The translations under genes and the position numbers were made by a program. The notes under the pieces are model-generated. The model searched no databases, was not told the origin of the DNA, and saw only the letters and a program-made list of their open reading frames with translations. A DNA stretch of 64,000 nucleotides, taken from positions 3,224,001 to 3,288,000 of the forward strand of contig NZ_CP110001.1 in assembly GCF_025947185.1 (NCBI RefSeq). Reading direction: 5' to 3'. The DNA comes from Flavobacterium sp. N2038. GTDB lineage: Bacteria > Bacteroidota > Bacteroidia > Flavobacteriales > Flavobacteriaceae. Below, in pieces: positions 50,005-64,000 of the stretch (positions within the stretch are counted from its first letter, which is position 1; each line of letters opens with the position of its first letter).

Positions 50005-51393
50005 TTAATTTGCTTTTTTAGTCTCGATTCCGTTTTGATCTAATAAATACATTAACGTAGTCATTGTTGCAGCACCAAGTTCTAATTCTCTTTTATTAAT
50101 AGCATCAAATTTATCATTTGCTGCGTGATGGTAATCAAAATAACGTTGTGAATCTGGTTTTAAACCTGCTTTAACAATTGCCTGTGATGTTAAATGACTA
50201 ATATCTGAACCTGCGTGACCAATTGTAAAACTATGTACTAAATAAGGCTCAAAAAGATCTCTGTATCCTTGTATTTTTTTTACGTTGGCATCATCTGCTT
50301 CAATTGAAAATCCGCGTGGTGAGAATCCGCCTGAATCACTTTCTAATGCAAAAATATGATTCTCTTTCTTTTGTTTTGAAACTTCTTCATATTTAGCACC
50401 ACCTTTTCCTCCATTCTCTTCGTTCATAAATAATACAACACGAATCGTATTTTTAGGTTTGTAGTTTAGGTTTTTTAGAATGCGAATTACCTCCATACTC
50501 TGTACTACTCCCGCTCCATCATCATGAGAACCATCGGCTAAATCCCAGGAATCTAAATGTCCTCCCACTACCATAATATTTTCCGGAGTTACTGTTCCTG
50601 TTAATTCTCCGATTACATTATAAGACAAAACGTCCGGCAAAGTTTCGCAAGATTGTTTGAAATAAAATTTTAAAGACGGATTACGTTTCAAACTGGCACT
50701 TAGCAATTCAGCACCATTTGTACTAATTGCTGCAGTTGGAATATATTGCTCTTTTGGTAAATCTCCGTAGCTCTGTGCTCCTGTATGTGGAAAGTCATCT
50801 AAACGCAAATTCATCGAACGAACAATTGTTCCTACTGCGCCCAGTTTTGCAGCTTCTTTTGCACCTGCATATCTTTGATCTACGCAAGCTCCATAAGATG
50901 TAAATGTTTCGATATTTTCAGGATTCATTGGTCTGTTATAAAACACAATTTTTCCTTTTACTTTATCTCCTAATGCTTCCAGTTCTTTGATTCCCTGAAC
51001 TTCTATTATCTCTGCTGTAAGTCCTGTTTTTGCAGTTGCAACAGAACCGCCTAAAGCACAAATTGGCACTGCAATTTTAGCTTTATTATCTAAGATAAAA
51101 GCAGTTTCTTTTGCGCCGCGTACCCAGTGTGGTACCATAACTTCCTGTAGATATACTTTGTCTAGACCTAAGCTTTCTAATTGGGTTTTAGTATACTGAA
51201 CTGCCTGCTCTGCACTTGCTGATCCTGACAGACGGCTTCCAATATCATTTGACAAATACTCTAACCAAGTGTAGCATTTAGCTTCGGTTAAAGCTTTTTT
51301 ATAAAATAATTTAATGTTCTTTTCATCATTTGACTGTGCAAAAGATGTTAATCCGCTTAAAACTATAGCAGTTAAAAGAATCGTTTTTTTCAT
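50005..51393 (-). CDS. M28 family zinc peptidase with PA domain
   Basis: A 462-residue exported peptidase. I start at 51393 (MKKTILLTAIVLSGLTSFAQ), a clean signal peptide; the in-frame ATG at 51474 adds residues from the leader. A PA-type insert (about 120-225) precedes the zinc domain: VVGGHLDSWDLADGSHDDGAG (ligand His and Asp, then bridging Asp), FMNEENGGKGG (catalytic Glu and ligand Glu), ALESDSGGF (Asp ligand) and YFDYHHAAND (His ligand). It resembles exported aminopeptidases or carboxypeptidase Q. It sits at the end of the polysaccharide locus but has its own terminator and lies past the terminator of the GH43 gene, so it probably is not a locus member. Confidence 0.93.
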   Translation of the reverse strand: MKKTILLTAIVLSGLTSFAQSNDEKNIKLFYKKALTEAKCYTWLEYLSNDIGSRLSGSASAEQAVQYTKTQLESLGLDKVYLQEVMVPHWVRGAKETAFILDNKAKIAVPICALGGSVATAKTGLTAEIIEVQGIKELEALGDKVKGKIVFYNRPMNPENIETFTSYGACVDQRYAGAKEAAKLGAVGTIVRSMNLRLDDFPHTGAQSYGDLPKEQYIPTAAISTNGAELLSASLKRNPSLKFYFKQSCETLPDVLSYNVIGELTGTVTPENIMVVGGHLDSWDLADGSHDDGAGVVQSMEVIRILKNLNYKPKNTIRVVLFMNEENGGKGGAKYEEVSKQKKENHIFALESDSGGFSPRGFSIEADDANVKKIQGYRDLFEPYLVHSFTIGHAGSDISHLTSQAIVKAGLKPDSQRYFDYHHAANDKFDAINKRELELGAATMTTLMYLLDQNGIETKKAN

Positions 51394-51473
51394 AGGTTTA
51401 TTAACTTTTTGGGTTGTTGTCACAAAGGAACAAAATTCTTCAGACCTGTAAGAGTTTTTATACCACCTTTTCA

Positions 51474-51518
51474 CAAAAAAAAACCTTGATTACAAATTAT
51501 TTTGTTTGTAATCAAGGT
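51474..51518 (-). terminator. Terminator of the GDPD-GH43 unit
   Basis: Perfect 14-bp stem ACCTTGATTACAAA/TTTGTAATCAAGGT with an 8-nt loop, followed on the minus strand by T run 51482-51474. Confidence 0.92.
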
Positions 51519-51542
51519 CTTTATAAGTTTAGCAGGTTAAAA

Positions 51543-53474
51543 CTATTTCACTTCTGTAATTTTAGTTTTTGCACCTATTCCATTTTCATTGAATGGTTCA
51601 ATCGTAAAATAATACTTTGTGCCTTTGTCTAATCCTCTAAAATCGTATGCGCTTTCGTCATAAACCATAATACTATTATATAATTTATCAGGGCTAATTC
51701 CGTAGTAAATATTATATCCTATAGCATCTGTTTGTTTTTTCCAGCTGATCATTGCATTTCTTGAATCTGTGGCATTTCTGGCTACTTTAAAATTAGAAAC
51801 TGCTTTTGGCTTAGTTTCTAATCCGTTTCCGAAAACTCTGAAATCTGAAATCGCAAATAATCCGGAAGCGTTATGAATATTTACCATTTTGATGTAACGC
51901 GCCTTAAACGATTTTGTCAATTCTACATAGTCATGAGGAACGTCTTTGGTGTTTTGAGATTTATCTACCACCAATGTCCAATTTTGAGCATCATCTGACA
52001 TAAAGATTTTATATTGATAATAAATATCCATTGCCTTATTATACTGCGTTGCTTTATGATCAGCATAATTAATTTGAAGTGCATTTATCTCCATTGCTCT
52101 TCCTAAATCAAGTTGCAGCCATTCTCCCGGAGCATCTGTCTTTGCAGACCAATACGTCTGAATATTTTCATCGGTTAAATTATTTGCTCCGTAACAAAAC
52201 TTCTCATACACTTTTTTCCCTCCATTATCCATTCTGTGGGTTTCGACTTCCATACAATCTTCAGAAGAGGAAACTGTAACCGGTTTTTTATATGAAAGTA
52301 GCATCCAGCCTTTTGAAGCTCCGTTTTCCTGGTTTCTTTGACCAGTTGGAAGTACAGTTGGAAAATCGCCATAAGCTGTAATAGAATACATTACATCGTC
52401 TTTATCAAATCCCGCAGGAAACATATCAATACGACGTTCAAAACGATCCTTAATAGAGATTTTACAAGTTCCGGTATTCCAGTAATTTCCATAATTATCT
52501 GCAAAAGTATTTCCGTGTCCTGCCCCAATTACAAACCCACCTGGTTTATACGACATTGGATTGTGTTTTTGATAGGTAAATGGTCCTAACGGATTATCAC
52601 CAACATGCACACCGTTTGCATATCCTTTAAATTCGGTTGCAGGTGCTCCATACTGCATATAATACTTTCCATTATGTTTGGTCATCCAGGCACCTTCAAT
52701 AAAATTCCCCCAGGGTGCAGGTTCCATATCATTGTTAGGTCCAAAACGCTCCCATCCATGATTTGCAGGATCTAAACCTACAACTTCTTTTATTTGTCCA
52801 TACGGACGCTGAATATCTTCAACTTCTGTTGCTTTATATAATTGTGCATAATCTGCCTGATTTCCTTTTGGAAGCCAGGTTTTATAATCAACTTCTGTAC
52901 CTACAAGTGGTAACTTCCCACTTGATCCGTAATACATATAGACTTTTTTATCATCATCCTGAAAAATGGCAGGATCCCAGGTTGGCAACATGGCTTTGTT
53001 TACGTGGCGTGTCCATCTTCCTGATTTTGGATCTGCTGTTTTCCAGATTGGATGGTCTCTTTTCCATGTTGAACCTACATAAAATAAGGTATCATTTACC
53101 ACCCATGCAGCTGGTGCACACTGGTCATCATCACCTGGCTGTCTTTGAAAACTTCCGTAAACAAAATTCCAGTCTGACATGTCTTTACTCCAAAAGAAAC
53201 CAGCCTGATTGGTAGCAAATAAATAATATTCGCCTTTATAAGTGATAATTACAGGATCTGCACTTGAACGTCGGGATTCCGGAATTCCGTTATGATTATG
53301 AGTTGTATAATTGTAACCGATATTAATTGGGTTACAATAGGTTGTCGCCGGTTTATTTGGATCAAACCATTCCGTTTTACCGGGAAGAGCCAAATTTTGA
53401 GCCTGAATATTGTTATTGAAAAATATCACAAACAATAAAACAGGGAATGTAAGCTGTTTATATATTTTTTTCAT
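51543..53474 (-). CDS. GH43-like glycosidase with discoidin and FnIII domains
   Basis: A 643-residue exported protein. Signal peptide 1-25 (ending NIQAQ). Residues about 40-400 form a five-bladed beta-propeller of GH43 style: SSADPVIITYKGEYYLFAT (catalytic base Asp), LPTWDPAIFQDDDKKVYMYYG (Asp) and NFIEGAWMTKHNGKYYMQYG (general acid Glu). Residues about 415-550 are a discoidin (F5/8C) domain (EWLQLDLGRAMEINALQINYADH...YIKMVNIH) and 555-643 an FnIII domain. GH43 enzymes usually act on arabinose, xylose or galactose units; this long form with extra domains may differ. It is 25 bp after the GDPD gene. Confidence 0.88.
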   Translation of the reverse strand: MKKIYKQLTFPVLLFVIFFNNNIQAQNLALPGKTEWFDPNKPATTYCNPINIGYNYTTHNHNGIPESRRSSADPVIITYKGEYYLFATNQAGFFWSKDMSDWNFVYGSFQRQPGDDDQCAPAAWVVNDTLFYVGSTWKRDHPIWKTADPKSGRWTRHVNKAMLPTWDPAIFQDDDKKVYMYYGSSGKLPLVGTEVDYKTWLPKGNQADYAQLYKATEVEDIQRPYGQIKEVVGLDPANHGWERFGPNNDMEPAPWGNFIEGAWMTKHNGKYYMQYGAPATEFKGYANGVHVGDNPLGPFTYQKHNPMSYKPGGFVIGAGHGNTFADNYGNYWNTGTCKISIKDRFERRIDMFPAGFDKDDVMYSITAYGDFPTVLPTGQRNQENGASKGWMLLSYKKPVTVSSSEDCMEVETHRMDNGGKKVYEKFCYGANNLTDENIQTYWSAKTDAPGEWLQLDLGRAMEINALQINYADHKATQYNKAMDIYYQYKIFMSDDAQNWTLVVDKSQNTKDVPHDYVELTKSFKARYIKMVNIHNASGLFAISDFRVFGNGLETKPKAVSNFKVARNATDSRNAMISWKKQTDAIGYNIYYGISPDKLYNSIMVYDESAYDFRGLDKGTKYYFTIEPFNENGIGAKTKITEVK

Positions 53475-53499
53475 GATTTGGTTTGTTTTTGTAATGGGA

Positions 53500-54273
53500 T
53501 TACTTTTTCTGGTTTATTCTTTCCTGCAAAAGTTCCGGTTCATTTGTAGTTATATAATTGAATTTATAATCTATAATCCAATCCATATCTGTCGCCTCAT
53601 TGACTGTCCAGGCATTCAGAATAATCTTGTTGTCTTTTGCTTCTTTAACCCATTCCGGATGCTTTTTGAAAACGGAATAATGATAATCTACGCCATTAAT
53701 CTTGTCAGCCTTAACTTCCTTTGGAGATTTATTTCCTTCCAGGTATTGCAATACTGTTTTAGAATCAATTGTTCTTATTTGTTTTAGAATATCATAATCA
53801 AAACTAATATAACAGGTCTTTTTATCTGCTTTGAGTTTTTTGATGGTTTCTACTGTTTTTAAAGCTGTTATTTTTCCATGCTCTTTGCTAATTTCTGAGG
53901 GTTTTATTTCACAAACCAAAAGAGTATGTTTATTGTTTCTTAAACCTTCAGTAATATACTCATGAAGCGTTGGCAGCTTTTCACCATTAGACAATTTAAA
54001 TTGTATTAAATCTGCGTAATTGGTTTCTTCAATAAGTAATTTATTATAATGTGCATCGTGATTGATTACAAGTGAATCATCTGCGGTTCTCCAAACATCA
54101 AATTCCGAACCTGTCAAATTTAAATCGATGGCATGTCTTAGGGCTGCGATTGAATTTTCGGGCATATTATTTTTTTTCCATGCACCACGATGTGCCACAA
54201 TGCCATTCTTTTTTACACTGCAGGAAGAAAAAACTACCAACAGAACTAATGAAGCTATTTTAAAAGTATTCAT
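53500..54273 (-). CDS. Glycerophosphodiester phosphodiesterase lipoprotein
   Basis: A 257-residue GDPD-family lipoprotein (VVFSSCSVKK, Cys18). The TIM-barrel active site is complete: H28-R29 in VAHRGAWKKNNMPENS, E57 and D59 in SEFDVWRTADDSLVINHD (metal ligands) with H72, and the E-K pair in LLVCEIKPSE. The C-terminal WTVNEATDMDWIIDY keeps the conserved Trp-Thr-Val. GDPDs cut glycerophosphodiesters into glycerol 3-phosphate and an alcohol. Being surface or periplasm anchored and in a polysaccharide locus, its target may be phosphoglycerol groups on a glycan (inference). It lies after the terminator that ends the SusCD-GH3 run, then leads to the GH43 gene. Confidence 0.92.
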   Translation of the reverse strand: MNTFKIASLVLLVVFSSCSVKKNGIVAHRGAWKKNNMPENSIAALRHAIDLNLTGSEFDVWRTADDSLVINHDAHYNKLLIEETNYADLIQFKLSNGEKLPTLHEYITEGLRNNKHTLLVCEIKPSEISKEHGKITALKTVETIKKLKADKKTCYISFDYDILKQIRTIDSKTVLQYLEGNKSPKEVKADKINGVDYHYSVFKKHPEWVKEAKDNKIILNAWTVNEATDMDWIIDYKFNYITTNEPELLQERINQKK

Positions 54274-54305
54274 ACAATTTAAAAATTAAAAGAGGTTTTA
54301 TACTA

Positions 54306-54340
54306 GAAAAAAAGCCCTTCGCTAACCAACACGAAGGGCT
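54306..54340 (-). terminator. Terminator after the GH3 gene
   Basis: Perfect 9-bp stem AGCCCTTCG/CGAAGGGCT with a 10-nt loop and a T run on the minus strand. It separates the SusC-to-GH3 run from the GDPD-GH43 pair. Confidence 0.9.
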
Positions 54341-54361
54341 AATTACTAATCAATAAACCAA

Positions 54362-56662
54362 CTATTTAGTTAACTCAAAACTAACTTTCTTGTCGGCAGC
54401 TGAATTTCCTCCAACGAAAATCTCAAACTGTCCAGGCTCTGCTACGAATTGTAAATCAGAGTTATAAAATTTTAAATCTTCAACAGTAATATCAAAACTT
54501 ACTGTTTGTTTCTCCCCTTTTTTAAGGGCTATTTTCTGGAAACCTTTCAATTCTCTAACTGGTCTTGTTACCGAACCAACTAAATCTCTGATGTATAACT
54601 GAACTGTTTCTTTACCGTCAAAATTTCCTGTATTTGCAAGATCAACTGTAACTTTAAGTTTTCCGGTTGCATTCATTTTGTCTGATGAAATTTTCAGATT
54701 TGAATAATCAAAAGTCGTATAACTTAAACCAAACCCGAATGGAAATAAAGCTTCGTTTCTTTCGTCGATATAGTTTGATCTGAATTTTTCAAATTTCCCT
54801 TCTGTATTAGAAAGTGGTCTTCCTGTATTTTTGTGTGCGTAATAAATTGGCAACTGACCAACACTTCTTGGGAAAGTTGATGTTAATTTTCCTGAAGGGT
54901 TTACATCTCCAAATAAAACATCAGCAATAGCGTAACCTGCTTCTGTACCAGCAAACCAAACGTTTAAGATTGCAGGAACTGTTTTTGCTTCGTCCGTAAT
55001 TACCAACGGACGTCCGTCAAATAAAACTAAAACAACTGGTTTTCCTGTTTTTAATAAAGCGTTTAATAAATCTTTTTGCGCCTGAGGAATTTCTAAGTTT
55101 GTACGGCTGCTTGATTCTCCGCTCATTTCTGCAGATTCTCCTAAGGCAGCTACAATTACATCCGATTGCTCAGCAACTTTTAAAGCTTCAGCTAATAATT
55201 CTTCTTTTGAACGTGCATCACGGTGTAATGTTTTTCCAAACATTGTTGCATTAGTCTCAAAAGTTTCATCGTAATCTAAGTTACTTCCTTTAGCGTATAA
55301 AACTTTTGTTCCTGCTCCTGCAACTTCTTTGATTCCGGCTAATAATGAAATAGCATTTTCCATTTTTGTAGCTACACTCCAGGTACCCGGCATATTTTCT
55401 TTAGCATCTGCCAATGGTCCGATAAGTCCAATCGTTCCTGATTTTTTAAGAGGCAATACCTGATTTTGATTTTTTAGCAACACTAAAGATTGTGAGGCGA
55501 TTTGACGTGCTTCTTTTCTGCTATCCATAGTAAAGATTTCAGTTTTAGCTCTTTTTTCATCACAATATTTATATGGATCCTGGAATAAACCTAAATCGTA
55601 TTTTGCTTCTAAGATAAGTTTAACAGCATTGTCGATTGTTTCGATTTTTACTTTTCCTTCATCCAAAGATTTTTTCAAAGTTCCTAAGAAACCTTCTCCA
55701 ACCATATCCATTTCAACTCCGGCGTTTAATGACAAAGCAGAAACTTGTTGAAGATCTCCCATTCCGTGCTCAATCATTTCAGGAATTCCTGTAAAATCTG
55801 TAACCACAAAACCTTTAAAACCCCATTGTTTTCTTAGAATATCTGTCATTAACCATTTATTTCCTGTTGCCGGAATTCCGTCAATTTCATTAAAAGAAGC
55901 CATAACCGAACCTACACCAGCATCAACTGCTGCTTTGTAAGGAGGAAAATAATCGTTAAACATTCTGATGTGACTCATATCAACTGTGTTGTAATCACGT
56001 CCGCCTTCTGGAGCACCGTATAATGCAAAGTGTTTAACGCAAGCTAAAATCGAATTGTTTTTAGAAAGATCGTGTTGTTGGTAACCGTTTACCATTGCTT
56101 TTGCAATCTGGCTTCCTAAATATGGATCTTCTCCTGAACCTTCAGAAACTCTTCCCCAACGCGGATCACGCGAAATATCTACCATTGGCGAGAATGTCCA
56201 GTTGATTCCGTCAGCACTAGCTTCTTTTGCCGCGATTTGAGCACTTCTTTCGATTAAGCCCATATCCCATGTACAAGACAATCCTAACGGAATTGGGAAT
56301 GTTGTTTCATAACCATGAATAACATCCATACCAAAAAGCAACGGAATTTTCAAGCGGCTCTTTTCAACCGCAATTTTTTGAACTTCCTTAATTTTTTGAA
56401 CTGATTTAATGTTGAACAAACCTCCTACTTTACCTTCGGCAATATTTTTTGCAACATTTGAGCTGTTTGCCTGTCCTGTTGTAATATCTCCTGATGTAGG
56501 TAAATTTAATTGTCCTAATTTTTCATCTAATGTCATTTTTGACATTAATTCTGCTACAAACTCCGACTTAGGTTTAATTTTTACTGTACTCTTTGTGTTC
56601 TTTTTTTGAGCGTAACCCAAAACAGCACATCCTAAAAAAAGTAAGACTAATTTGTTTTTCAT
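54362..56662 (-). CDS. bglX: GH3 family beta-glucosidase (BglX type)
   Basis: A 766-residue exported GH3 enzyme. Signal peptide 1-19 (ending GYAQ). The N-terminal TIM barrel contains LFGMDVIHGYETTFPIPL, FSPMVDISRDPRWGRVSEGSGEDPYLG and CVKHFALYG; the nucleophile is D289 in GFVVTDFTGIPE. The alpha/beta sandwich holds LGESAEMSGESSSRTNLEIPQ with the likely acid/base Glu, and the C-terminal FnIII-like domain is at about 670-750. It releases terminal beta-linked glucose; GH3 enzymes of Bacteroidota act on beta-1,2-, 1,3-, 1,4- or 1,6-linked oligosaccharides. Next to a GH144-like gene, beta-1,2-gluco-oligosaccharides are the best guess. Confidence 0.95.
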   Translation of the reverse strand: MKNKLVLLFLGCAVLGYAQKKNTKSTVKIKPKSEFVAELMSKMTLDEKLGQLNLPTSGDITTGQANSSNVAKNIAEGKVGGLFNIKSVQKIKEVQKIAVEKSRLKIPLLFGMDVIHGYETTFPIPLGLSCTWDMGLIERSAQIAAKEASADGINWTFSPMVDISRDPRWGRVSEGSGEDPYLGSQIAKAMVNGYQQHDLSKNNSILACVKHFALYGAPEGGRDYNTVDMSHIRMFNDYFPPYKAAVDAGVGSVMASFNEIDGIPATGNKWLMTDILRKQWGFKGFVVTDFTGIPEMIEHGMGDLQQVSALSLNAGVEMDMVGEGFLGTLKKSLDEGKVKIETIDNAVKLILEAKYDLGLFQDPYKYCDEKRAKTEIFTMDSRKEARQIASQSLVLLKNQNQVLPLKKSGTIGLIGPLADAKENMPGTWSVATKMENAISLLAGIKEVAGAGTKVLYAKGSNLDYDETFETNATMFGKTLHRDARSKEELLAEALKVAEQSDVIVAALGESAEMSGESSSRTNLEIPQAQKDLLNALLKTGKPVVLVLFDGRPLVITDEAKTVPAILNVWFAGTEAGYAIADVLFGDVNPSGKLTSTFPRSVGQLPIYYAHKNTGRPLSNTEGKFEKFRSNYIDERNEALFPFGFGLSYTTFDYSNLKISSDKMNATGKLKVTVDLANTGNFDGKETVQLYIRDLVGSVTRPVRELKGFQKIALKKGEKQTVSFDITVEDLKFYNSDLQFVAEPGQFEIFVGGNSAADKKVSFELTK

Positions 56663-56696
56663 GTGTATTTAATATTTATTTTTTAATGGAACATGG

Positions 56697-56741
56697 AATC
56701 GCTTTTCTTGATTCTGTTTGTAATTTGGAATCAAAGCGATT
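56697..56741 (-). other. Intercistronic hairpin between alpha/beta hydrolase and GH3 genes
   Basis: AATCGCTTT (56697-56705) and AAAGCGATT (56733-56741) pair, with inner GATTC/GAATC extending the stem across small loops. There is no strong U tail. It may stabilise mRNA or lessen transcription into the GH3 gene. Confidence 0.55.
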
Positions 56742-56751
56742 TCATTCTGTT

Positions 56752-57474
56752 TTATTTATTTGTTTGTATTGTATTCTTTCTATTCTGTTTAAACATCCAG
56801 TCATATATTTCCTGATTGTCGTAAACTTTTGTCCAGCTATCATGTCCTGCGTTGTCAAAAATGGTCAATTGAACATCTTTTGCATTACATTTTTTCAATT
56901 CTTTGTAAATCGTAATTGCATAATCAACATTAACTACATCATCTAATAATCCGTGGAAAATTCTGGTTGGAATATTGGCTATTTCACAGGTTTTTTCCAG
57001 CTGAATTAAATCTACAAAACCAGCGACAGGTACGTTTGCTGCAAATAGATCCGGATGTGCAAAAGCCAAATTCCATGAAGCCCAGCCTCCTGAGCTCAAA
57101 CCAGTAACATATATTCTATCGGAATCAATATTGTTTTCTTTTTGCATTTTCAAGATCAACTGATAAATTGATTCAATGTCCCAATTTTCATCTTCTTTAC
57201 ATTGCGGCGCCAGAATATAGGCATCTAATGCGTGTGTTTTTAAATATTTGAACGGACCATTAATTTTAACCTTTTCAATGTCGGTCCCTTTCTCACCATC
57301 TCCCGAAATAAAAACTATTAATGGCTTCTTTTCTTTTGTACTTAAAGGCTTATGAAATGCATAACCTAATTCAGTATTGATGACAACAACTGTTTTAAAT
57401 TTTCCTATGGTTTCACTTTGTGCAAAACCAAATACAGAAAACAATAGAATAAGCGCCGTTATTTTATATCTCAT
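56752..57474 (-). CDS. Exported alpha/beta hydrolase (esterase type) of the polysaccharide locus
   Basis: A 240-residue exported enzyme with signal peptide (1-19, ending FGFAQS). The alpha/beta hydrolase fold shows PLIVFISGDGEKGTD, the nucleophile elbow VTGLSSGGWASW (S128), IFHGLLDDVVNV (D178 or D179) and FDNAGHDSWTKVYDN (H211). It resembles feruloyl or acetyl esterases and the PHB-depolymerase-like family. It lies 10 bp after the GH144-like gene, so it is part of the locus and probably removes an ester decoration, such as acetyl or succinyl, from the glycan. Confidence 0.88.
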   Translation of the reverse strand: MRYKITALILLFSVFGFAQSETIGKFKTVVVINTELGYAFHKPLSTKEKKPLIVFISGDGEKGTDIEKVKINGPFKYLKTHALDAYILAPQCKEDENWDIESIYQLILKMQKENNIDSDRIYVTGLSSGGWASWNLAFAHPDLFAANVPVAGFVDLIQLEKTCEIANIPTRIFHGLLDDVVNVDYAITIYKELKKCNAKDVQLTIFDNAGHDSWTKVYDNQEIYDWMFKQNRKNTIQTNK

Positions 57475-57484
57475 TTATTTGAAT

Positions 57485-58864
57485 TTAAATTCCGTATTTA
57501 CCTGATTTAAACCCAAGTTTTGTTAATCCTTGTTTTACTTCCGGAGCATTCATAAATAATTTCCAAAGTAGACCTGTACGATAATTTTCGATCATCACTA
57601 TTTCCGGCCCCTGATCGATTGCTAAATAGCGTTTTGCTACCCAATTATCATTTCCTAAACTAAGTGCATCGTAAAAACCGGCCTCTCCCCAGGTTTGCTC
57701 TTTATGATTTTCGTATAAATTACGTATCAAAGCCATTGACTCTTTTGGTGTATACACAATTGAACTAATTGCTGCCGTTGGAGAAATTACGTCCTGATCA
57801 TTACTTGGCATGTGTGCATTATATCCAATTGAACCGTCAGGGTTTCTGGAATATGAGGCTGTTAATCCCCAATAATCTTTACCGTAACCTTTAAACTTTT
57901 TAGGATTCTCTACACAATATTTGTAATCAATCTTAACCTGATTTACATTTAGATCCCAATAGTTTGCATATTTATCTGTTAATTGGTTCGGATCTAGTCC
58001 TACATAAGAATAATGTGCCCAAAATAATGGTCCACCAAATTCTTCTGCTCCATTGTGTTTTAGCACTAAAGGAATATTGTATTTAGTTTTAGAAGAAACA
58101 ATTCCGCCACTTCTTGCCCAGCCTTCATGGTATGCTTTTGCATCAATACCATGTGTTGGCGAAGAAGCTGCCAAAATGTACGTGATTAAACATTCGTTGT
58201 ATCCTTCCAACGGAAAATTCATTTGCCAGTCATAATTTGGCGACCAGTGCCAGTACAAAACATTTTTGTTATTGGTATACCATTGCCACTCTACGCCTTT
58301 CCAAAGCGCATCATATTTTTGTGCAACAGCTTTTTCTTTTTCAGAACCATTTTTAAGATATTCACGAACTGTAATCATTCCTGAAATTAAAAATGATGTT
58401 TCGACTAAGTCTCCTCCATTATCTTTAGTCCCAAATGGTTTTACTTTTCCTGTATTTCCGTCAATCCAGTGTGACCATGCTCCATGAAAACGATCTGCTT
58501 TTGCAAGAAAATCGGCAATTTTATCTAATCTTTTTACTCCTTCCTCTTTTGTAACATAACCTCTTGACATTCCGGAAACAATAGCCATTAATCCAAAACC
58601 TGATCCTCCTGTTGTTACAATATTTGAATCATTTTCAGGGTAATTTCCATCAGGATGATAACGTTCTCTTCCTAATCCTGAATTTGGTTCAGCATAATCC
58701 CAGAAGTATTTAAAGGTTTGTTTTTGAACAACATCTAAAAGTTGTTCATCAGTTAATGCAGTAACACCAGAAGTATTTTCTCCTGTATTATTCTTTGATT
58801 TTTGGGCATTTGATCCACAACCAAAAAAGGTAAAAGCTAAAAACAAAACTGAAATTCTAATCAT
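57485..58864 (-). CDS. GH144-like endo-beta-1,2-glucanase (glycoamylase family)
   Basis: A 459-residue lipoprotein, started at 58864 (MIRISVLFLAFTFFGCGSNAQ, lipobox Cys16); the ATG at 58897 adds 11 residues that overlap a hairpin. The (alpha/alpha)6-barrel glycoamylase domain is recognisable from QTFKYFWDYAEPNSGLGRERY, VTTGGSGFGLMAIVSGMSRGYV, RFHGAWSHWIDGNTGK, GGDLVETSFLISGM, NMFPLEGYNEC-like NFPLEGYNECLITYILA, GGPLFWAHYSYVGLDP, DYWGLTASY and AHMPSNDQDVISPTAAISSIVY. This is the family whose characterised Bacteroidota members are endo-beta-1,2-glucanases (GH144). The linkage here is inferred. It follows SusD. Confidence 0.88.
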   Translation of the reverse strand: MIRISVLFLAFTFFGCGSNAQKSKNNTGENTSGVTALTDEQLLDVVQKQTFKYFWDYAEPNSGLGRERYHPDGNYPENDSNIVTTGGSGFGLMAIVSGMSRGYVTKEEGVKRLDKIADFLAKADRFHGAWSHWIDGNTGKVKPFGTKDNGGDLVETSFLISGMITVREYLKNGSEKEKAVAQKYDALWKGVEWQWYTNNKNVLYWHWSPNYDWQMNFPLEGYNECLITYILAASSPTHGIDAKAYHEGWARSGGIVSSKTKYNIPLVLKHNGAEEFGGPLFWAHYSYVGLDPNQLTDKYANYWDLNVNQVKIDYKYCVENPKKFKGYGKDYWGLTASYSRNPDGSIGYNAHMPSNDQDVISPTAAISSIVYTPKESMALIRNLYENHKEQTWGEAGFYDALSLGNDNWVAKRYLAIDQGPEIVMIENYRTGLLWKLFMNAPEVKQGLTKLGFKSGKYGI

Positions 58865-58893
58865 TATAAAAATTTTGAGATTGTAATAAATAA

Positions 58894-58925
58894 TCACTTC
58901 CTTCTGAGAACCAGAAGGAAGTGAT
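58894..58925 (-). other. Strong hairpin between SusD and GH144-like genes
   Basis: Perfect 14-bp stem (ATCACTTCCTTCTG/CAGAAGGAAGTGAT) with a 4-nt loop, 11 bp after the SusD stop. It lacks a clean U tail in the minus direction. As in other SusCD operons it may stabilise the upstream mRNA or partly end transcription so that susCD outnumbers enzyme mRNA. Confidence 0.75.
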
Positions 58926-58935
58926 ATTATGAATA

Positions 58936-60411
58936 TTAATTATAACCAGGATTTTGAGAAGACATTCCTTCTGCTATTAAAAGGAAAGATGCCGGAATTG
59001 GGAATAATTCATTTTTACCCACTGTAAATACTTTTCCATCTACAGCGAAAGCATCTTTTGCCTGACCAGTTCTAACTAAATCAAAAAATCTGTCAAATTC
59101 AAATGCTAACTCAACTCTTCTTTCTTTCCAGATTGCAGTTCTAACTGCTGCCTGAGAAGTTGCTGGAGTATCTCCTAAACCAGCTCTGTGTCTGATTACG
59201 TTTAATAATGGAATTGCTTCTGAAGTCTGACCTAGTTCATTTAAAGCTTCTGCTTTCATTAACAATACTTCACCATATCTCAAATACTTGATATTTGCAT
59301 CCGTTTCCCATGCATTTGTGAACGCAGAAGAATATGCTTTAAAGTTGTATCTCGGATTAGGATCTACTTGTCCTTCTGGTAATACAACCAAAGGAACTAC
59401 TGTACCATCATATAAAGTTGTTCCTCTAAAAATAATGGTAGCATCTTTTCTAACATCACCAGGCTCATAAGCATTTACCAAACTTTGAGAAGGCTGATTG
59501 AAGCCCCATCCCCATGAATCACGAACACCCTGAGTATTAGAATATCCTTGAATTCCGCGTGCAGGAACACTACCTACACCATTTATTTCAAAAATAGATT
59601 CTCCATCATTTTCTCCTTCCAATCTAAACATTTTAGCATAGCTCGGAGAAATAATATATCCTGTGATCAGATTACAATTATCAACAACACTTTGCCATTT
59701 TTTCTGATACAAACTCACTTTTGCTAACAATGCATAAGCTGCTCCTTTTGAAGCTCTGGCTTTTTCAGCATCAGCATATTGGGATTTATTTGGTAAAACC
59801 GCAGCTGCTTCTTTTAAATCTTTTTCAATAAAAGCATAAACTTCAGCAGATGTTTTACGAGTTAACTGCATCGCTTTATCTTCTGTTGATAATGGAATTT
59901 TTGATACATGATCTACAATAGGCACTCCTCCATAACATTTTACTAAAGTAAAGTACATGAAAGCTCTTAAAAATTTTGCCTCAGCCATTAATCTTTCTCT
60001 TAATGCAGGATCAGCTTTAGATAATTTAGGCAGAATTTCTAATGCCTGATTACATCTGTTAATTCCGTCATAGTTTGCATTAAACGTACTCTCAGCAGAT
60101 GGATTTGATGCATTATATGTTAATGCATCCAAAACGTCTTTATCAGTACCAGTATCACTAGGAGTTGAACCTTTATCAGCATCATCAGATGTAATACTTG
60201 CTAGTCCAATCCATCCGAATGAACTCATATCCCAGTCTAAAAATTTGCTGTAAATAGAAGTCACAAATGTTTTTGCTCCATTGTCATTGTTAAACAACTC
60301 GATATCGTCAACAGAAACTGTTTCTGTTTGTTTAACATCTAAGTAATCATCAGCACATCCTGTAAAAGTGAATGCTGATAACACGAAGATTGATATATAT
60401 ATCTTTTTCAT
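58936..60411 (-). CDS. SusD/RagB family glycan-binding lipoprotein
   Basis: A 491-residue SusD-type lipoprotein, started at 60411 (MKKIYISIFVLSAFTFTGCADD, lipobox Cys19); the ATG at 60438 lies inside the susC end and adds 9 residues. It has the family's TPR-like helical core (TYNASNPSAESTFNANYDGINRCNQALEIL, RLMAEAKFLRAFMYFTLVKCYGGVPIV, AEKARASKGAAYALLAKVSLYQKKWQ), the C-terminal EVLLMKAEALNELGQTSEAIPLLNVIRHRAGL, and the ending IWKERRVELAFEFDRFFDLVRTG. SusD sits as a lid on SusC and captures the glycan at the cell surface. It lies 4 bp after susC. Confidence 0.96.
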   Translation of the reverse strand: MKKIYISIFVLSAFTFTGCADDYLDVKQTETVSVDDIELFNNDNGAKTFVTSIYSKFLDWDMSSFGWIGLASITSDDADKGSTPSDTGTDKDVLDALTYNASNPSAESTFNANYDGINRCNQALEILPKLSKADPALRERLMAEAKFLRAFMYFTLVKCYGGVPIVDHVSKIPLSTEDKAMQLTRKTSAEVYAFIEKDLKEAAAVLPNKSQYADAEKARASKGAAYALLAKVSLYQKKWQSVVDNCNLITGYIISPSYAKMFRLEGENDGESIFEINGVGSVPARGIQGYSNTQGVRDSWGWGFNQPSQSLVNAYEPGDVRKDATIIFRGTTLYDGTVVPLVVLPEGQVDPNPRYNFKAYSSAFTNAWETDANIKYLRYGEVLLMKAEALNELGQTSEAIPLLNVIRHRAGLGDTPATSQAAVRTAIWKERRVELAFEFDRFFDLVRTGQAKDAFAVDGKVFTVGKNELFPIPASFLLIAEGMSSQNPGYN

Positions 60412-60415
60412 AATA

Positions 60416-63400
60416 TTAAAATTTAAAATTAGCACCAATTACAAACGATCTTAATGTTGGATAAGCATCCAATTCAACCCCTTGAGTTCCATAAGGATTC
60501 CCGTCTCCATTCAATTCAGGAGAAAAACCTGAGAATTTTTGAGTAATGAATGGATTAATTGCATTCAGGTAAATTCTGCAAGAGCTAATAAATTGATCTT
60601 CTCTAAGAGGAAGTTTGTAACCCAATGTAATATTGTTGATTCTAAAGAAATCTCCAGATTCCATATAGTAAGTAGATGCTACCGGAACAGTATTAAATGG
60701 TCTTGGATTTGGCGATGTTGTATTTGTTGGTGTCCAATAATCATTTGTCATAGAAGCTTCAATATTTTCACCTCCAAAACGCTGTGCTTTTTTACCATTG
60801 TATACTTTTGCTCCTCCAGTACCATATCCGTCAACTGAGAAATCAATGTTTTTGTAAACAACTCCTAAAGAAACTCCGTAGTTAGATGTTGGCAAAATTG
60901 AACCTACATATTTTTTATCAGCTGTTGCAGATAAAGCATCCTGAGTTACTTTAGCACCTGCAGCATTATAGTAAAGCATATTTCCATTTGCCGGATCTAC
61001 ACCTGCATATTCATAAAGATAAAAACTACCTAATGGCTGACCTATTGAGTTGTTATATAACAATTTGGTATCCTGACCATTTCCTAAATTACCTCCGACA
61101 ACCTGAGATAATGAAACATCTTTTAAACTTGTAAGTTCATTCTTGTTGTTAGAATAGTTTCCTCCAACCCAGTAACTTAAATCGTCTGTAATTTTATCAT
61201 CCCAACGTAAAGCTATCTCATAACCTTTATTTGAAACCTCACCAACATGTGATGGAGTTGCTACTGTAATACCAGAAGTTGGATATGGTTTAATGTTCAG
61301 AATAACATTGTTTGTATTTTTATCGTAAACATCAAAAGATCCTTTTAATCTATTTTGAAATAATTCAAAATCTAAACCTACAGAAGCTTCCTCAGTAATC
61401 TCCCAAGTTAAAGTAGGGTCAATTTGAGAAGTAATACTTGTTCCTTCATTTAAGATAGATCCGCCTAAATAACTGTTTAATCCAGAAGCATACCCTTGAT
61501 TATTTAATGGTACATTTTGGTTACCTAATTTACCCCAGCTTCCTCTTAATTTAAGCAAATCAACTCCTTTAATATCTGACAAGAAACTTTCTTTAGTCAT
61601 AATCCATCCAAGACCTACGGATGGGAAAGTTCCCCAACGGTAATCTTTTGCAAAGTTTGAAGATCCGTCACGTCTAATAGTTCCAGTTACTAAGTATCTG
61701 TCCATTAATTTGTACTGAAGACGGCCAAAATAAGAAGCTAATTTACTTTCGTTAAATACAACATCTTGTAAACTTGTAACTGTACCAACATAGTCTACAC
61801 CTTTTGAATCTTTTGAGTTATATAAGGCCCAATAGTTAGAATCCGGACTTACATTTTTTCTTACGATTGTTAATTTTTCTCTTGGCCCTTTTACAGAAGT
61901 TTCAATACCAGCAGTTAATTCAACATCATTAATATTAGCAAATACTTTATTATAAGTAAAATAGTTAGATAAGTTCCAGTTAAAGTACTGCTCTCTACCT
62001 TTAGTCAATAAATTGATAGGATCTGATGAAGGATAACCTGAATCAACGCGAGTTGGATTTGCTGCTAACCAAACATTTTTAGTATCTTCATAATTATATT
62101 GTTTCCAGCTATAATACTCTCCATTAAATTGTGAAGTAAATTTTAACCCGTCTACAATTTCATAATCTAATTTCAGACCTCCTTGAAGAGTAATACTTCT
62201 TTGTTCTTCATTATAGAAATCTAATTGTGCAACCGGGTTTCCAACATTATTAAACGATGAACCAGTTGGACTTGCTACTCCGTTTGCATCTGCAAAAGGA
62301 ACACCATATTTACCATTTGAAAAACGCACAGGAACAATAGATGATTGCTTGTATGCATTTGTAAATGCACTTAACGGTTTTGGTGAAGAATTAGCTGATG
62401 TAAAACTAAAGTTTTGATTTAAAGTAACTTTTTTAGAAAGTTTAAATTCATTGTTATTTCTAAAACTTGTACGGCTATAATCTAAGCCATTTAGAATCGC
62501 TTTTTCTTGATAGTTACCTGCGCTAAAAAAGTATTTAATATTTTCTGAAGCTCCAGAAATAGAAATATTATTTTGAGTATAAGTACCCGTTCTTGTAATT
62601 TCATCAAACCAATCTGTATTTACTGGCTGATTTGTAGAGAATTTGTTTGTCCCTAAAGCTGCATTACTATAGCTTGCATATTGATTTGCATCTGCCATTT
62701 TTACTTTCTTAAGTGGTGTTCTTACACCACCAAAGCTTTCAACTTCTACAGAAACTTTGTCACCTTTACCTTTCTTTGTTGTAATAATGATTACCCCGTT
62801 TGCAGCTCTGGTACCATAGATCGCCAGAGACGAAGCATCTTTTAGAATTTCGTAAGAAGTAATATCGTTTGTATTGATATTATTGATGTTTTCAGTTGGC
62901 ATTCCATCAACAATATATAAAGGATTTCTTCCTCCTAATGCAGTACCCAAACCTCTAATAACCACAGAAGGTGTACTTCCCGGAACATCTGAAGAAGTTA
63001 CCTGAACCCCTGCAGCTTTACCCTGAATAGCCTGAGATGCATTTAATACCTTTGTTTTTGTAACATCTTCTGCTCTTAATGAAGTAATAGCAGAAGTATT
63101 ATCAATTTTCTTTCTGGTACCGTAACCAATTACAACCACTTCTTTTAAGGAAGTATCACCAGCTTCTTTTAATGTAACTGACATTACACCTGCAGTTGCA
63201 GGTACAGAAACAGAATCGAAACCAAGCATCGAGATTTTTAAAGTCTCTCCAACTTTAGCATTAATGGTAAAATTACCATCGAAGTCAGCATCAGCAGATG
63301 TTCTGGATTCCGAAGCACTAATTATAGCTCCCGGAACTCCCATTCCACTACTGTCTACTACTTTTCCTTTAATTGCCTGTGCCTGCCCCATCATAAATGC

Positions 63401-63445
63401 TGGCAGCAACAAGAGTGCTAAAAAGCTAAAAATAAAATTTTTCAT
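60416..63445 (-). CDS. SusC/RagA family TonB-linked outer membrane receptor
   Basis: A 1009-residue importer. Signal peptide 1-20; carboxypeptidase regulatory-like domain (IKGKVVDSSGMGVPGAIISASE) up to about residue 95; TonB box region with EVVVIGYGTRKKIDNTSA; plug with VVIRGLGTALGGRNPLYIVDGMPTENINNI and LKDASSLAIYGTRAANGVIIITTKKG, the SusC signature; then a barrel with many Y/F-ended strands ending RSFVIGANFKF. It forms the pedal-bin pair with the next gene, SusD, and brings oligosaccharides into the periplasm. The upstream region carries four TGATGTA-type motifs and the end of the regulator gene. Confidence 0.97.
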   Translation of the reverse strand: MKNFIFSFLALLLLPAFMMGQAQAIKGKVVDSSGMGVPGAIISASESRTSADADFDGNFTINAKVGETLKISMLGFDSVSVPATAGVMSVTLKEAGDTSLKEVVVIGYGTRKKIDNTSAITSLRAEDVTKTKVLNASQAIQGKAAGVQVTSSDVPGSTPSVVIRGLGTALGGRNPLYIVDGMPTENINNINTNDITSYEILKDASSLAIYGTRAANGVIIITTKKGKGDKVSVEVESFGGVRTPLKKVKMADANQYASYSNAALGTNKFSTNQPVNTDWFDEITRTGTYTQNNISISGASENIKYFFSAGNYQEKAILNGLDYSRTSFRNNNEFKLSKKVTLNQNFSFTSANSSPKPLSAFTNAYKQSSIVPVRFSNGKYGVPFADANGVASPTGSSFNNVGNPVAQLDFYNEEQRSITLQGGLKLDYEIVDGLKFTSQFNGEYYSWKQYNYEDTKNVWLAANPTRVDSGYPSSDPINLLTKGREQYFNWNLSNYFTYNKVFANINDVELTAGIETSVKGPREKLTIVRKNVSPDSNYWALYNSKDSKGVDYVGTVTSLQDVVFNESKLASYFGRLQYKLMDRYLVTGTIRRDGSSNFAKDYRWGTFPSVGLGWIMTKESFLSDIKGVDLLKLRGSWGKLGNQNVPLNNQGYASGLNSYLGGSILNEGTSITSQIDPTLTWEITEEASVGLDFELFQNRLKGSFDVYDKNTNNVILNIKPYPTSGITVATPSHVGEVSNKGYEIALRWDDKITDDLSYWVGGNYSNNKNELTSLKDVSLSQVVGGNLGNGQDTKLLYNNSIGQPLGSFYLYEYAGVDPANGNMLYYNAAGAKVTQDALSATADKKYVGSILPTSNYGVSLGVVYKNIDFSVDGYGTGGAKVYNGKKAQRFGGENIEASMTNDYWTPTNTTSPNPRPFNTVPVASTYYMESGDFFRINNITLGYKLPLREDQFISSCRIYLNAINPFITQKFSGFSPELNGDGNPYGTQGVELDAYPTLRSFVIGANFKF

Positions 63446-63689: not shown

Positions 63690-64000
63690 TTACAGACTTA
63701 ATAAAAACTTTGACAGGTTTTCCTCCTGGTTAAGATTTAATTTCTTCCTCAAACGATATCTGTGTAGTTCTACACCTCTAAAAGAGATATTCATCATAGG
63801 TGCAATTTCTTTTGAAGAGAGATTCATTTTAAGATAAACACACAGTTTTATATCTTTTGGAGTCAGTTGTGGATATTTTTTAGAAAGTGTAATGATAAAC
63901 TCATTATGAATTTGATTCAGATTGGTTTCAAAAATTTCCCATTCATGTTTATTCACTTCATTTATCTTAATTGCTTTTTTGATTTCGCTTTTAAGTTTAT
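63690..64000 (-). CDS. C-terminal end of a LuxR-type sensor/regulator (5' end outside window)
   Basis: The frame continues past the right edge, so only the last 103 or so codons are seen. A coiled-coil-like segment (NLKSEIKKAIKINEVNKHEW) leads to a LuxR-type helix-turn-helix: FEITLSKKYPQLTPKDIKLC-like sequence and then NLSSKEIAPMMNISFRGVELHRYRLRKKL. This ending is typical of the one-protein regulators of Bacteroidota with large ligand-sensing (beta-propeller/triple-tyrosine) domains that control polysaccharide loci. It lies directly upstream of susC and is likely its activator; the sensor part is not visible. Confidence 0.85.
   Translation of the reverse strand, partial: KLKSEIKKAIKINEVNKHEWEIFETNLNQIHNEFIITLSKKYPQLTPKDIKLCVYLKMNLSSKEIAPMMNISFRGVELHRYRLRKKLNLNQEENLSKFLLSL

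Follow-up and report, generated by a model that had tools for sequence, protein, structure and literature searches.

Why should a locus for glucan breakdown encode a glycerophosphodiesterase? The question is raised by Flavobacterium sp. N2038, in which a polysaccharide utilization locus (PUL) built round a GH144 glucanase also carries the gene of a lipoprotein of the GDPD family. The locus lies in a stretch of 64,000 nucleotides (contig NZ_CP110001.1, positions 3,224,001 to 3,288,000; hereafter the window, to which all coordinates refer). It had been proposed from the letters of this stretch (the original prediction) that the locus serves for substituted beta-1,2-glucan, with the GDPD removing phosphoglycerol groups and a neighbouring exported hydrolase removing succinyl groups. 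Comparison with related loci leads us to favour, with evenly balanced confidence, the reading that this is a PUL for the beta-1,2-glucans of other bacteria, namely cyclic or linear osmoregulated periplasmic glucans (OPGs), in which the GDPD would be an optional accessory for glucans that bear glycerophosphoryl groups.

A probable beta-1,2-glucan core

The genes lie on the minus strand and follow each other, in the order of transcription, as regulator, SusC, SusD, GH144, alpha/beta hydrolase, GH3, GDPD, GH43 and M28 peptidase, with intergenic distances of -23 to 89 bases. The seven from SusC to GH43, which had already been named, are all present as open reading frames (ORFs) at the predicted place and all score above the curated cut-offs of their Pfam families (GH144, GDPD, GH3, GH43 with F5/8C and fn3, SusD, TonB plug and barrel, alpha/beta hydrolase). 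The locus exceeds the span 51543..63445 first assigned to it, the M28 peptidase lying downstream and the regulator upstream, where it runs out of the window; the C-terminal part at 63690..64000 holds the LuxR-type DNA-binding end (PF00196) of a protein of 914 aa in full (L002:1191-3935). The SusC/RagA outer-membrane transporter (60416..63445, 1009 aa; TIGR04056, 710 bits) and the SusD-family glycan-binding lipoprotein (58936..60438, 500 aa) precede the GH144 lipoprotein (57485..58897, 470 aa).

The GH144 protein reaches 272 bits against PF10091, whose cut-off is 27, and 619 bits over residues 26-465 against the endo-beta-1,2-glucanase CpSGL (5gzk/5gzh). Since it scores 423 bits against BDI_3064 (5z06), which we take to be exo-acting, it appears nearer to the endo type. 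In the accessible part of one report, mutation of D135, D139, E142 and E211 of CpSGL is described as drastically lowering activity (PMC12102758). By our reading of the alignment these residues, which comprise its catalytic acid and proposed base, correspond to D159, D163, E166 and E235 here, positions with a conserved fraction of 1.00, rounded, among 129 GH144 sequences. The GH144-like glucanase of the original prediction is thereby borne out, with the apparent make-up of an endo-beta-1,2-glucanase and the four catalytic residues of CpSGL kept. The GH3 beta-glucosidase (54362..56662, 766 aa) is of the BglX type, with 959 bits against NF011678, above the cut-off, and 1090 bits against 5xxl, which we take to be BT_3567, a beta-1,2-glucooligosaccharide beta-glucosidase.

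A SusC/SusD pair, a GH144, a GH3 and a regulator are the make-up of a beta-1,2-glucan PUL, and use of this glucan is very probably the core function of the locus. GH144 PULs for beta-1,2-glucan have been described as abundant, with a sulfatase added in marine species, in the part of that study available to us (PMC6499787); because the GH144 and GH3 proteins match known enzymes and such PULs are already published, the core is of an ordinary, known and common kind. The source genome, a single contig of 4.67 Mb, has one GH144 and two GDPDs, the second of which is 27% identical to that of the locus and lies elsewhere, near GH97-like genes. Among the named relatives compared, F. branchiicola is the nearest (GH3 99%, GH144 96% and GDPD 91% identity).

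The GDPD lipoprotein and its probable location

The GDPD (53500..54273, 257 aa) matches PF03009 with 88 bits and shows, behind a stretch that resembles a signal sequence, a lipobox-like Cys-18 (FSSC). His28/Arg29, Glu57/Asp59, His72 and Glu122/Lys124 are conserved among 127 sequences, so that the protein has the features of a TIM-barrel GDPD with its histidine pair, presumably catalytic, and its acidic residues, presumably metal-binding. A fold search with its AlphaFold model (pLDDT 92) returned 7wwc/7ww4 first (51% identical) and then 3no3 (38%), which comes from Parabacteroides distasonis. The closest solved relatives, 7ww4/7wwc, are two-domain proteins named beta-1,3(4)-glucanase, and their residues 5-236 match the GDPD. 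What was available on 7WWC describes a laminarin complex without an accompanying publication and gives the organism inconsistently.

Acidic residues after the lipobox cysteine mark surface lipoproteins. At least two acidic residues are present among the five that follow this cysteine in 45 of 56 SusD proteins (ADD in the one of this locus), and a LamG-type protein encoded in some of the loci has the same pattern in 16 of 16 cases. Among proteins with a detectable lipobox the pattern was found in none of 54 GH144 proteins and in none of 26 GDPDs, the lipobox pattern having matched nothing in 30 of 56 GDPDs. This suggests that SusD is surface-exposed whereas GH144 and GDPD would face the periplasm, an arrangement that fits the import of intact small glucans, OPGs and cyclic glucans among them. 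In the sources as far as accessible, the OPGs of E. coli have a degree of polymerization of 5-12 and the cyclic glucans of S. meliloti about 19-25 units.

The GDPD occupies a fixed but optional slot

The original prediction called for the conservation of GDPD beside GH144 to be checked in other genomes, and the pairing is indeed conserved, in many Flavobacterium species and in some Chitinophagaceae. Among 199 Flavobacterium genomes a GDPD (E <= 1e-30) was found in 43, with 45 matches, and a GH144 in 81. All 32 GDPDs at least 77% identical to that of the locus lie 3.2-4.1 kb from a GH144, and none of the 13 less similar ones lies within 8 kb of one; a linked GDPD is present in 32 of the 81 GH144 genomes and 49 are without it.

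Two sets of loci were then compared: set A, read from the genome samples (14 Flavobacterium GDPD loci, the window included), and set B, from a separate scan of which the best 80 of 559 candidates were kept, 55 of them from Flavobacterium and chosen by likeness to the locus GDPD. The Flavobacterium loci of the two sets overlap partly (e.g. L139, L178), so that their counts are not independent. They were set against 35 GH144 loci without GDPD, 18 from the family and 17 from the genus, which vary in length. GH144, GH3, SusC and SusD are present in all 55 Flavobacterium loci of set B. In every one of the 69 Flavobacterium loci read (14 of set A and 55 of set B) the GDPD comes directly after GH3; GH43 is next in 68, the contig of the remaining one stopping after GDPD. 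In the 17 genus loci without GDPD, GH3 is followed by GH43 in 10, GH97 in 3, M28 in 1, an ORF of the opposite strand in 2 and the contig end in 1; one of these loci (L167) keeps a GDPD remnant of 33 residues. A related regulator stands near GH144 in 31 of the 35 loci without GDPD and in 14 of 14 with it. The GDPD is thus an optional addition to a stable PUL core, and its presence or absence at one slot fits an accessory for a substituent. That it is a chance neighbour was considered and rejected for Flavobacterium, given 32 of 32 near GH144 and the same slot in 69 of 69.

In a tree of 39 GH3 proteins, which includes 9 of the 55 set B loci and leaves out L154, whose contig ends after GH3, the presence of GDPD takes 7 changes, 4 of them forced by well-supported branches; gain and loss weigh alike in these counts, which would also accommodate one joining followed by losses. 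Across the phylum (392 genomes) a close GDPD occurs in 45 and a GH144 in 140, and the two are linked in at least 11 of the 45, or at least 12 with G111; in G585 the GDPD directly adjoins GH144. In a tree of 74 GDPDs, with 12 of the 55 Flavobacterium loci of set B, the GH144 context takes 3 changes, 2 of them forced, and is found in two groups, one of Flavobacterium and one of Chitinophagaceae (L237, L240, L243, L247 and L250, with further members L232 and L242 that start at contig edges). Two separate joinings of GDPD with GH144 would be the simplest reading.

Relatives of the GDPD in beta-1,3-glucan loci

The 74 close GDPD loci were sorted by the genes within 8 kb. GH144 is present in 26 (21 from Flavobacterium, a sample), the GDPD is fused to GH16 in 19 and lies beside GH16 in 6, while 14 have other PUL or glycosidase genes and 9 none of the labelled genes. 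GH16 is thus fused to or adjoins the GDPD in 25 of the 48 loci without GH144, and the association of this GDPD with glucan breakdown genes, part of the original prediction, extends beyond GH144. The GDPD and GH16 protein of one flavobacterial genome aligns with 7wwc over almost its full length. A frequent order in flavobacterial loci of this kind is regulator, SusC, SusD, GDPD-GH16, EEP protein and GH3; an EEP gene is present in 13 of 25 GDPD and GH16 loci (13 of 16 in set A, 0 of 9 in set B) and in 1 of 5 Chitinophagaceae loci with GH144 and GDPD. For one EEP protein, matches were obtained to four solved sequences; one of these, 4c1r (176 bits), is named mannosyl-6-phosphatase, so that the EEP protein may be a glycan phosphatase.

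Genes resembling glpK, glpF or glpD occur in 8 of the 25 GDPD and GH16 loci (7 of 16 in set A, 1 of 9 in set B) and in L131, where GDPD and EEP stand without a labelled GH16 and which was kept apart from the 16 of set A; they occur in 0 of the 35 GH144 loci without GDPD and in 3 of 20 control loci, which are described below. All three are found in L130, L161 and L249, and L123 has a glpF fragment only, at the locus edge. No setting of the distant-GDPD kind lies within reach of the glp genes of L124-L126, L130, L131, L161 and L249, several of which stand at the locus edge. The glpK-glpF pair beside the GDPD of L117 was discounted as independent evidence, its place resembling the usual distant-GDPD site. 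Breaking down a glycerophosphorylated glucan would, we infer, call for such a set of functions round a beta-glucanase: a GDPD, a phosphatase for sugars, and the means to take up and oxidise glycerol. The company kept by these GDPDs thus lends indirect support to the proposed stripping of glycerophosphoryl groups from beta-glucans. The loci L123-L128, L130, L131, L161 and L249 are PULs with GDPD-GH16 (or GDPD), most with EEP and GH3 and several flanked by glp genes, and GDPD-GH16 PULs with EEP or glp genes are candidates for a system acting on glycerophosphorylated beta-1,3-glucan. In the source genome, glpF-, glpK- and glpD-like genes lie together, away from the locus. The same genome has a further beta-glucan locus (L277, G000:C1:4624500-4643500) with SusD, two GH30, a GH3, an EEP protein and another GH3 and no labelled GDPD; its EEP protein is 66% identical to one adjoining a GDPD-GH16 gene.

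The GDPD family is not confined to glucan loci, since close relatives stand beside GH20 and/or exo-glucosaminidase-type GH2 genes in L159, L160 and L241, with a PIG-L/glucosamine-6-phosphate isomerase protein in L160 as well. It is a tentative proposal, held with somewhat less than even confidence, that this GDPD subfamily, partly with EEP and glycerol genes, forms a module common to Bacteroidota PULs for glycerophosphorylated beta-glucans of bacteria, both beta-1,2 (GH144) and beta-1,3 (GH16), of which the window would hold the beta-1,2 version. More interesting than the locus itself is the sharing of a GDPD family between beta-1,2- and beta-1,3-glucan loci.

Transcription across the locus

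A terminator-like hairpin with a T-run (54313..54340, minus strand) comes directly after GH3, so that the seven genes from SusC to GH43 need not be transcribed together. A hairpin with a T-run was detected 3' of GH3 in 50 of the 67 gaps between GH3 and GDPD, and also in all 8 GH3-GH43 gaps tested in loci without GDPD, these eight being part of the 17 genus loci; its stem, such as CCCTTCGT/ACGAAGGG, has variants that keep the pairing. A run of five or more T follows GH3 in all 77 gaps, a count that carries no shuffle control. Hairpins with a T-run were found in none of 65 GDPD-GH43 gaps, and hairpins in 28 of 59 GH43-M28 gaps (here terminator-like, at 51479..51522 on the minus strand) and in 36 of 49 measured SusD-GH144 gaps. 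The SusD-GH144 hairpin of the window (58893..58925, minus strand), which has no long T-run, may set transcript stoichiometry. Terminator-like sites were mildly above chance (13 found against 7.5 expected, standard deviation 3.0), and sigma-70-like sites, 46 against an expected 55.7, did not exceed it. The promoter motif TAnnTTTG, looked for as the mark of a promoter of the GDPD's own, occurs in 1 of 67 GH3-GDPD gaps.

The other proteins of the locus

The exported alpha/beta hydrolase (56752..57474, minus strand, 240 aa) keeps Ser127, Asp178 and His211, which are conserved in 90 aligned hydrolases, and its closest solved relatives are general esterases. It is encoded in 60 of the 69 loci with GDPD (10 of 14 in set A, 50 of 55 in set B) and in 26 of the 35 GH144 loci without it (15 of 18 from the family and 11 of 17 from the genus); it is thus somewhat commoner with GDPD without being tied to it. 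For the role of succinyl esterase that had been assigned to it the evidence points neither way; the link with GDPD is loose, and the glycerophosphoryl and succinyl groups of S. meliloti were found on separate molecules, according to what was available of the source.

The GH43 protein (51543..53474, minus strand, 643 aa, with F5/8C and fn3) begins 25 bases after the GDPD. Asp73, Asp167 and Glu260 are conserved in 92 sequences, and its best match to a solved structure is weak (42 bits). It accompanies the GDPD in 54 of 55 Flavobacterium loci of set B, and in loci without GDPD it is present in 8 of 18 from the family and 14 of 17 from the genus; GH97 is present in 7 of these 17. The M28-family peptidase (50005..51474, minus strand, 489 aa) adjoins in 49 of the 55 set B loci. 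In L182 (Flavobacterium sp. ACN2) six extra ORFs lie between GH43 and M28, and the frame of the alpha/beta hydrolase is split. Among the loci without GDPD, 10 of the 18 from the family and none of the 17 from the genus have a sulfatase gene, and among those with it, none of 14 in set A and 1 of 55 in set B; a mutual exclusion of sulfatase and GDPD is confounded with phylogeny, and this claim was dropped. Flavobacterium proteins of 1421-1521 aa with a GH144-type domain are encoded in L165, L166, L171 and L172, that of L165 being an unusual fusion of PF10091 with PF01120 (alpha-L-fucosidase).

What the GDPD may act on

OPGs occur widely among the Proteobacteria and are decorated with glycerophosphoryl, succinyl and other groups. 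In the accessible parts of the sources, the cyclic beta-1,2-glucan of S. meliloti bears glycerophosphoryl or succinyl groups at C6, and the OPG substituents of E. coli are phosphoglycerol, succinate and phosphoethanolamine. If the locus serves for such glucans, the regulator would sense a glucan fragment and SusD and SusC would import the small glucan whole, as the export signals suggest; GH144 would cleave the beta-1,2 backbone and GH3 free glucose, as is known for their homologues. The GDPD would hydrolyse the glucan-6-phosphate-glycerol diester, giving either glycerol phosphate and clean glucan or glycerol and glucan-6-phosphate, after which GH144 and GH3 could complete the breakdown, and the alpha/beta hydrolase probably takes off an acyl group of unspecified kind. 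That the GDPD acts on glycerophosphoryl glucan seems to us an evenly poised proposition.

Several observations weigh against it. The phosphoglycerol of OPGs derives from phosphatidylglycerol and is of the sn-1 configuration, while characterised GlpQ-type GDPDs prefer sn-3. From the hairpin after GH3, GDPD and GH43 are probably a second unit or dependent on read-through, and may be transcribed weakly or apart, although the IR1 cluster described below, with genes of these names, is reported as an upregulated operon (PMC12758843). We know of no target in periplasmic glucans for GH43, or for the GH97 of relatives. Neither GH144 nor GH16 lies within 8 kb in 12 of 28 close GDPD loci of set A and in 11 of 25 non-Flavobacterium loci of set B, the contig ending there in some. 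EEP and glycerol genes are each absent from all 69 Flavobacterium loci with GH144 and GDPD, and the nine GDPD and GH16 loci of set B have glycerol genes in one and EEP in none; an EEP gene is moreover present in 3 of the 18 family loci that have GH144 but no GDPD (0 of 17 genus). Among 20 control loci from Flavobacteriaceae, with GDPDs 25-30% identical picked from the weaker matches (L253-L272), 12 have a SusC-like gene, 1 has GH16 (L255) and 0 have GH144; the 12 near SusC weaken arguments from neighbourhood, since nearness of a GDPD to a PUL does not prove that the two share a substrate. The control GDPDs have a recurrent setting, apparently a GH65/amylase region with an FAD-binding protein, to judge by the length of the ORFs, by L117 and by the legend of a figure on IR1, with glpK-glpF in 3 of 20. 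That legend, in the part of the source available, places a GDPD beside maltose/GH65/GH13 genes like those next to the control loci.

Even in a genuine beta-1,2-glucan PUL, the GDPD could serve to scavenge glycerophosphodiesters in general, whether those of deacylated phospholipids or of wall teichoic acid fragments; it would merely lie downstream of the GH3 terminator and yield phosphate and glycerol unrelated to the glucan. The terminator-like hairpin itself, the 49 of 81 GH144 genomes without a linked GDPD, the distant GDPDs in SusC-bearing loci (12 of 20), the close GDPDs of L118 and L120, which by ORF pattern seem to stand in the distant-GDPD setting, and the 9 of 74 loci without labelled glycan neighbours all agree with this. 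Against it, the GDPD stands in one slot behind GH3 throughout the 69 Flavobacterium loci, is joined to GH144 in Chitinophagaceae too and is fused with GH16 in 19 of the 74, and the source genome already has another, unlinked GDPD; we regard this explanation as rather unlikely. Less probable still is a substrate that is some other beta-1,2-glucose polymer with branches that need GH43 (GH97 or sulfatase in relatives), from which the GDPD would remove a phosphodiester-linked group. It would give a purpose to a GH43 whose catalytic residues are kept and which is common with and without GDPD (54 of 55; 8 of 18 and 14 of 17), and to the sulfatases of 10 of 18 family loci, yet we know of no such natural polymer and the weak GH43 match, at 42 bits, speaks against it. 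In the consulted part of the GH144 PUL study, marine members are taken to suggest an unknown sulfated polymer (PMC6499787).

That the locus belongs to the PUS type of Flavobacterium, SusCD systems for phosphate utilisation, and serves mainly to draw phosphorus from phosphorylated glycans, we consider very improbable. Clusters of SusCD with phosphodiesterases induced by Pi starvation are known in Flavobacterium from the accessible part of one report (PMC8115612), but no phosphomonoesterase or phosphate transporter was found among the nine proteins scanned, and regulator and core are alike in loci without GDPD. The similar IR1 cluster, moreover, rose in the moeA mutant alongside other carbohydrate PULs, as the available text has it (PMC12758843). 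We keep to the reading of a beta-1,2-glucan PUL with an accessory GDPD, at the confidence given at the outset.

Relation to known systems

It had been stated that no description of this gene combination was established. This holds in part: GH144 beta-1,2-glucan PULs are already described (PMC6499787) and such a gene set has been named in a 2026 paper (PMC12758843), without the interpretation given here. The locus shares its SusC, SusD, GH144 and GH3 core with the GH144 PULs of Lapebie et al. 2019 (PMC6499787), but it adds GDPD and GH43 past a terminator-like hairpin where their marine variant, in the part seen, adds a sulfatase instead.

The GDPD-GH16 beta-1,3-glucan loci (7ww4/7wwc; L114, L115, L119, L123-L128, L130, L158, L161 and set B relatives) have a GDPD domain 47-65% identical to the present one, SusC/SusD in most and regulator and GH3 in many, as here. 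There the GDPD is fused with GH16 or adjoins it, partly with EEP or glp genes, whereas here it stands alone beside GH144 and without either; GH16 is absent from the locus, the two GH16 places of the source genome being about 276 kb away.

In the portion of the IR1 study available, glycoamylase, GH3, GDPD and GH43 genes (PAM95095-90) are reported as an upregulated PUL operon of IR1 delta-moeA, a cluster like the present one by gene names alone (PMC12758843). It is ascribed there to cellulose, hemicellulose and pectin functions, and neither beta-1,2-glucan nor GH144 is named in that portion. PUS I-IV of F. johnsoniae also combine SusCD or a SusC-like transporter with a phosphodiesterase; as far as the source was accessible, they are Pi-starvation clusters with phosphomonoesterases and transporters, whereas glycosidases prevail here (PMC8115612).

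Significance for glucan catabolism

A role of GDPD in glucan breakdown was not found in open PMC full text, as far as that text was accessible. We also know of no catabolic route for substituted OPGs. The shared module proposed above would, if real, be the first route known to us for removing and using the substituents of other bacteria's periplasmic glucans. If the favoured reading of the locus is true, it would link the recycling of carbon, phosphorus and glycerol from dead bacteria, and the GDPD would be a tool enzyme for stripping glycerophosphate from such glucans; the clusters of GDPD-GH16, EEP and glp genes would offer a second handle on substituted-glucan catabolism.

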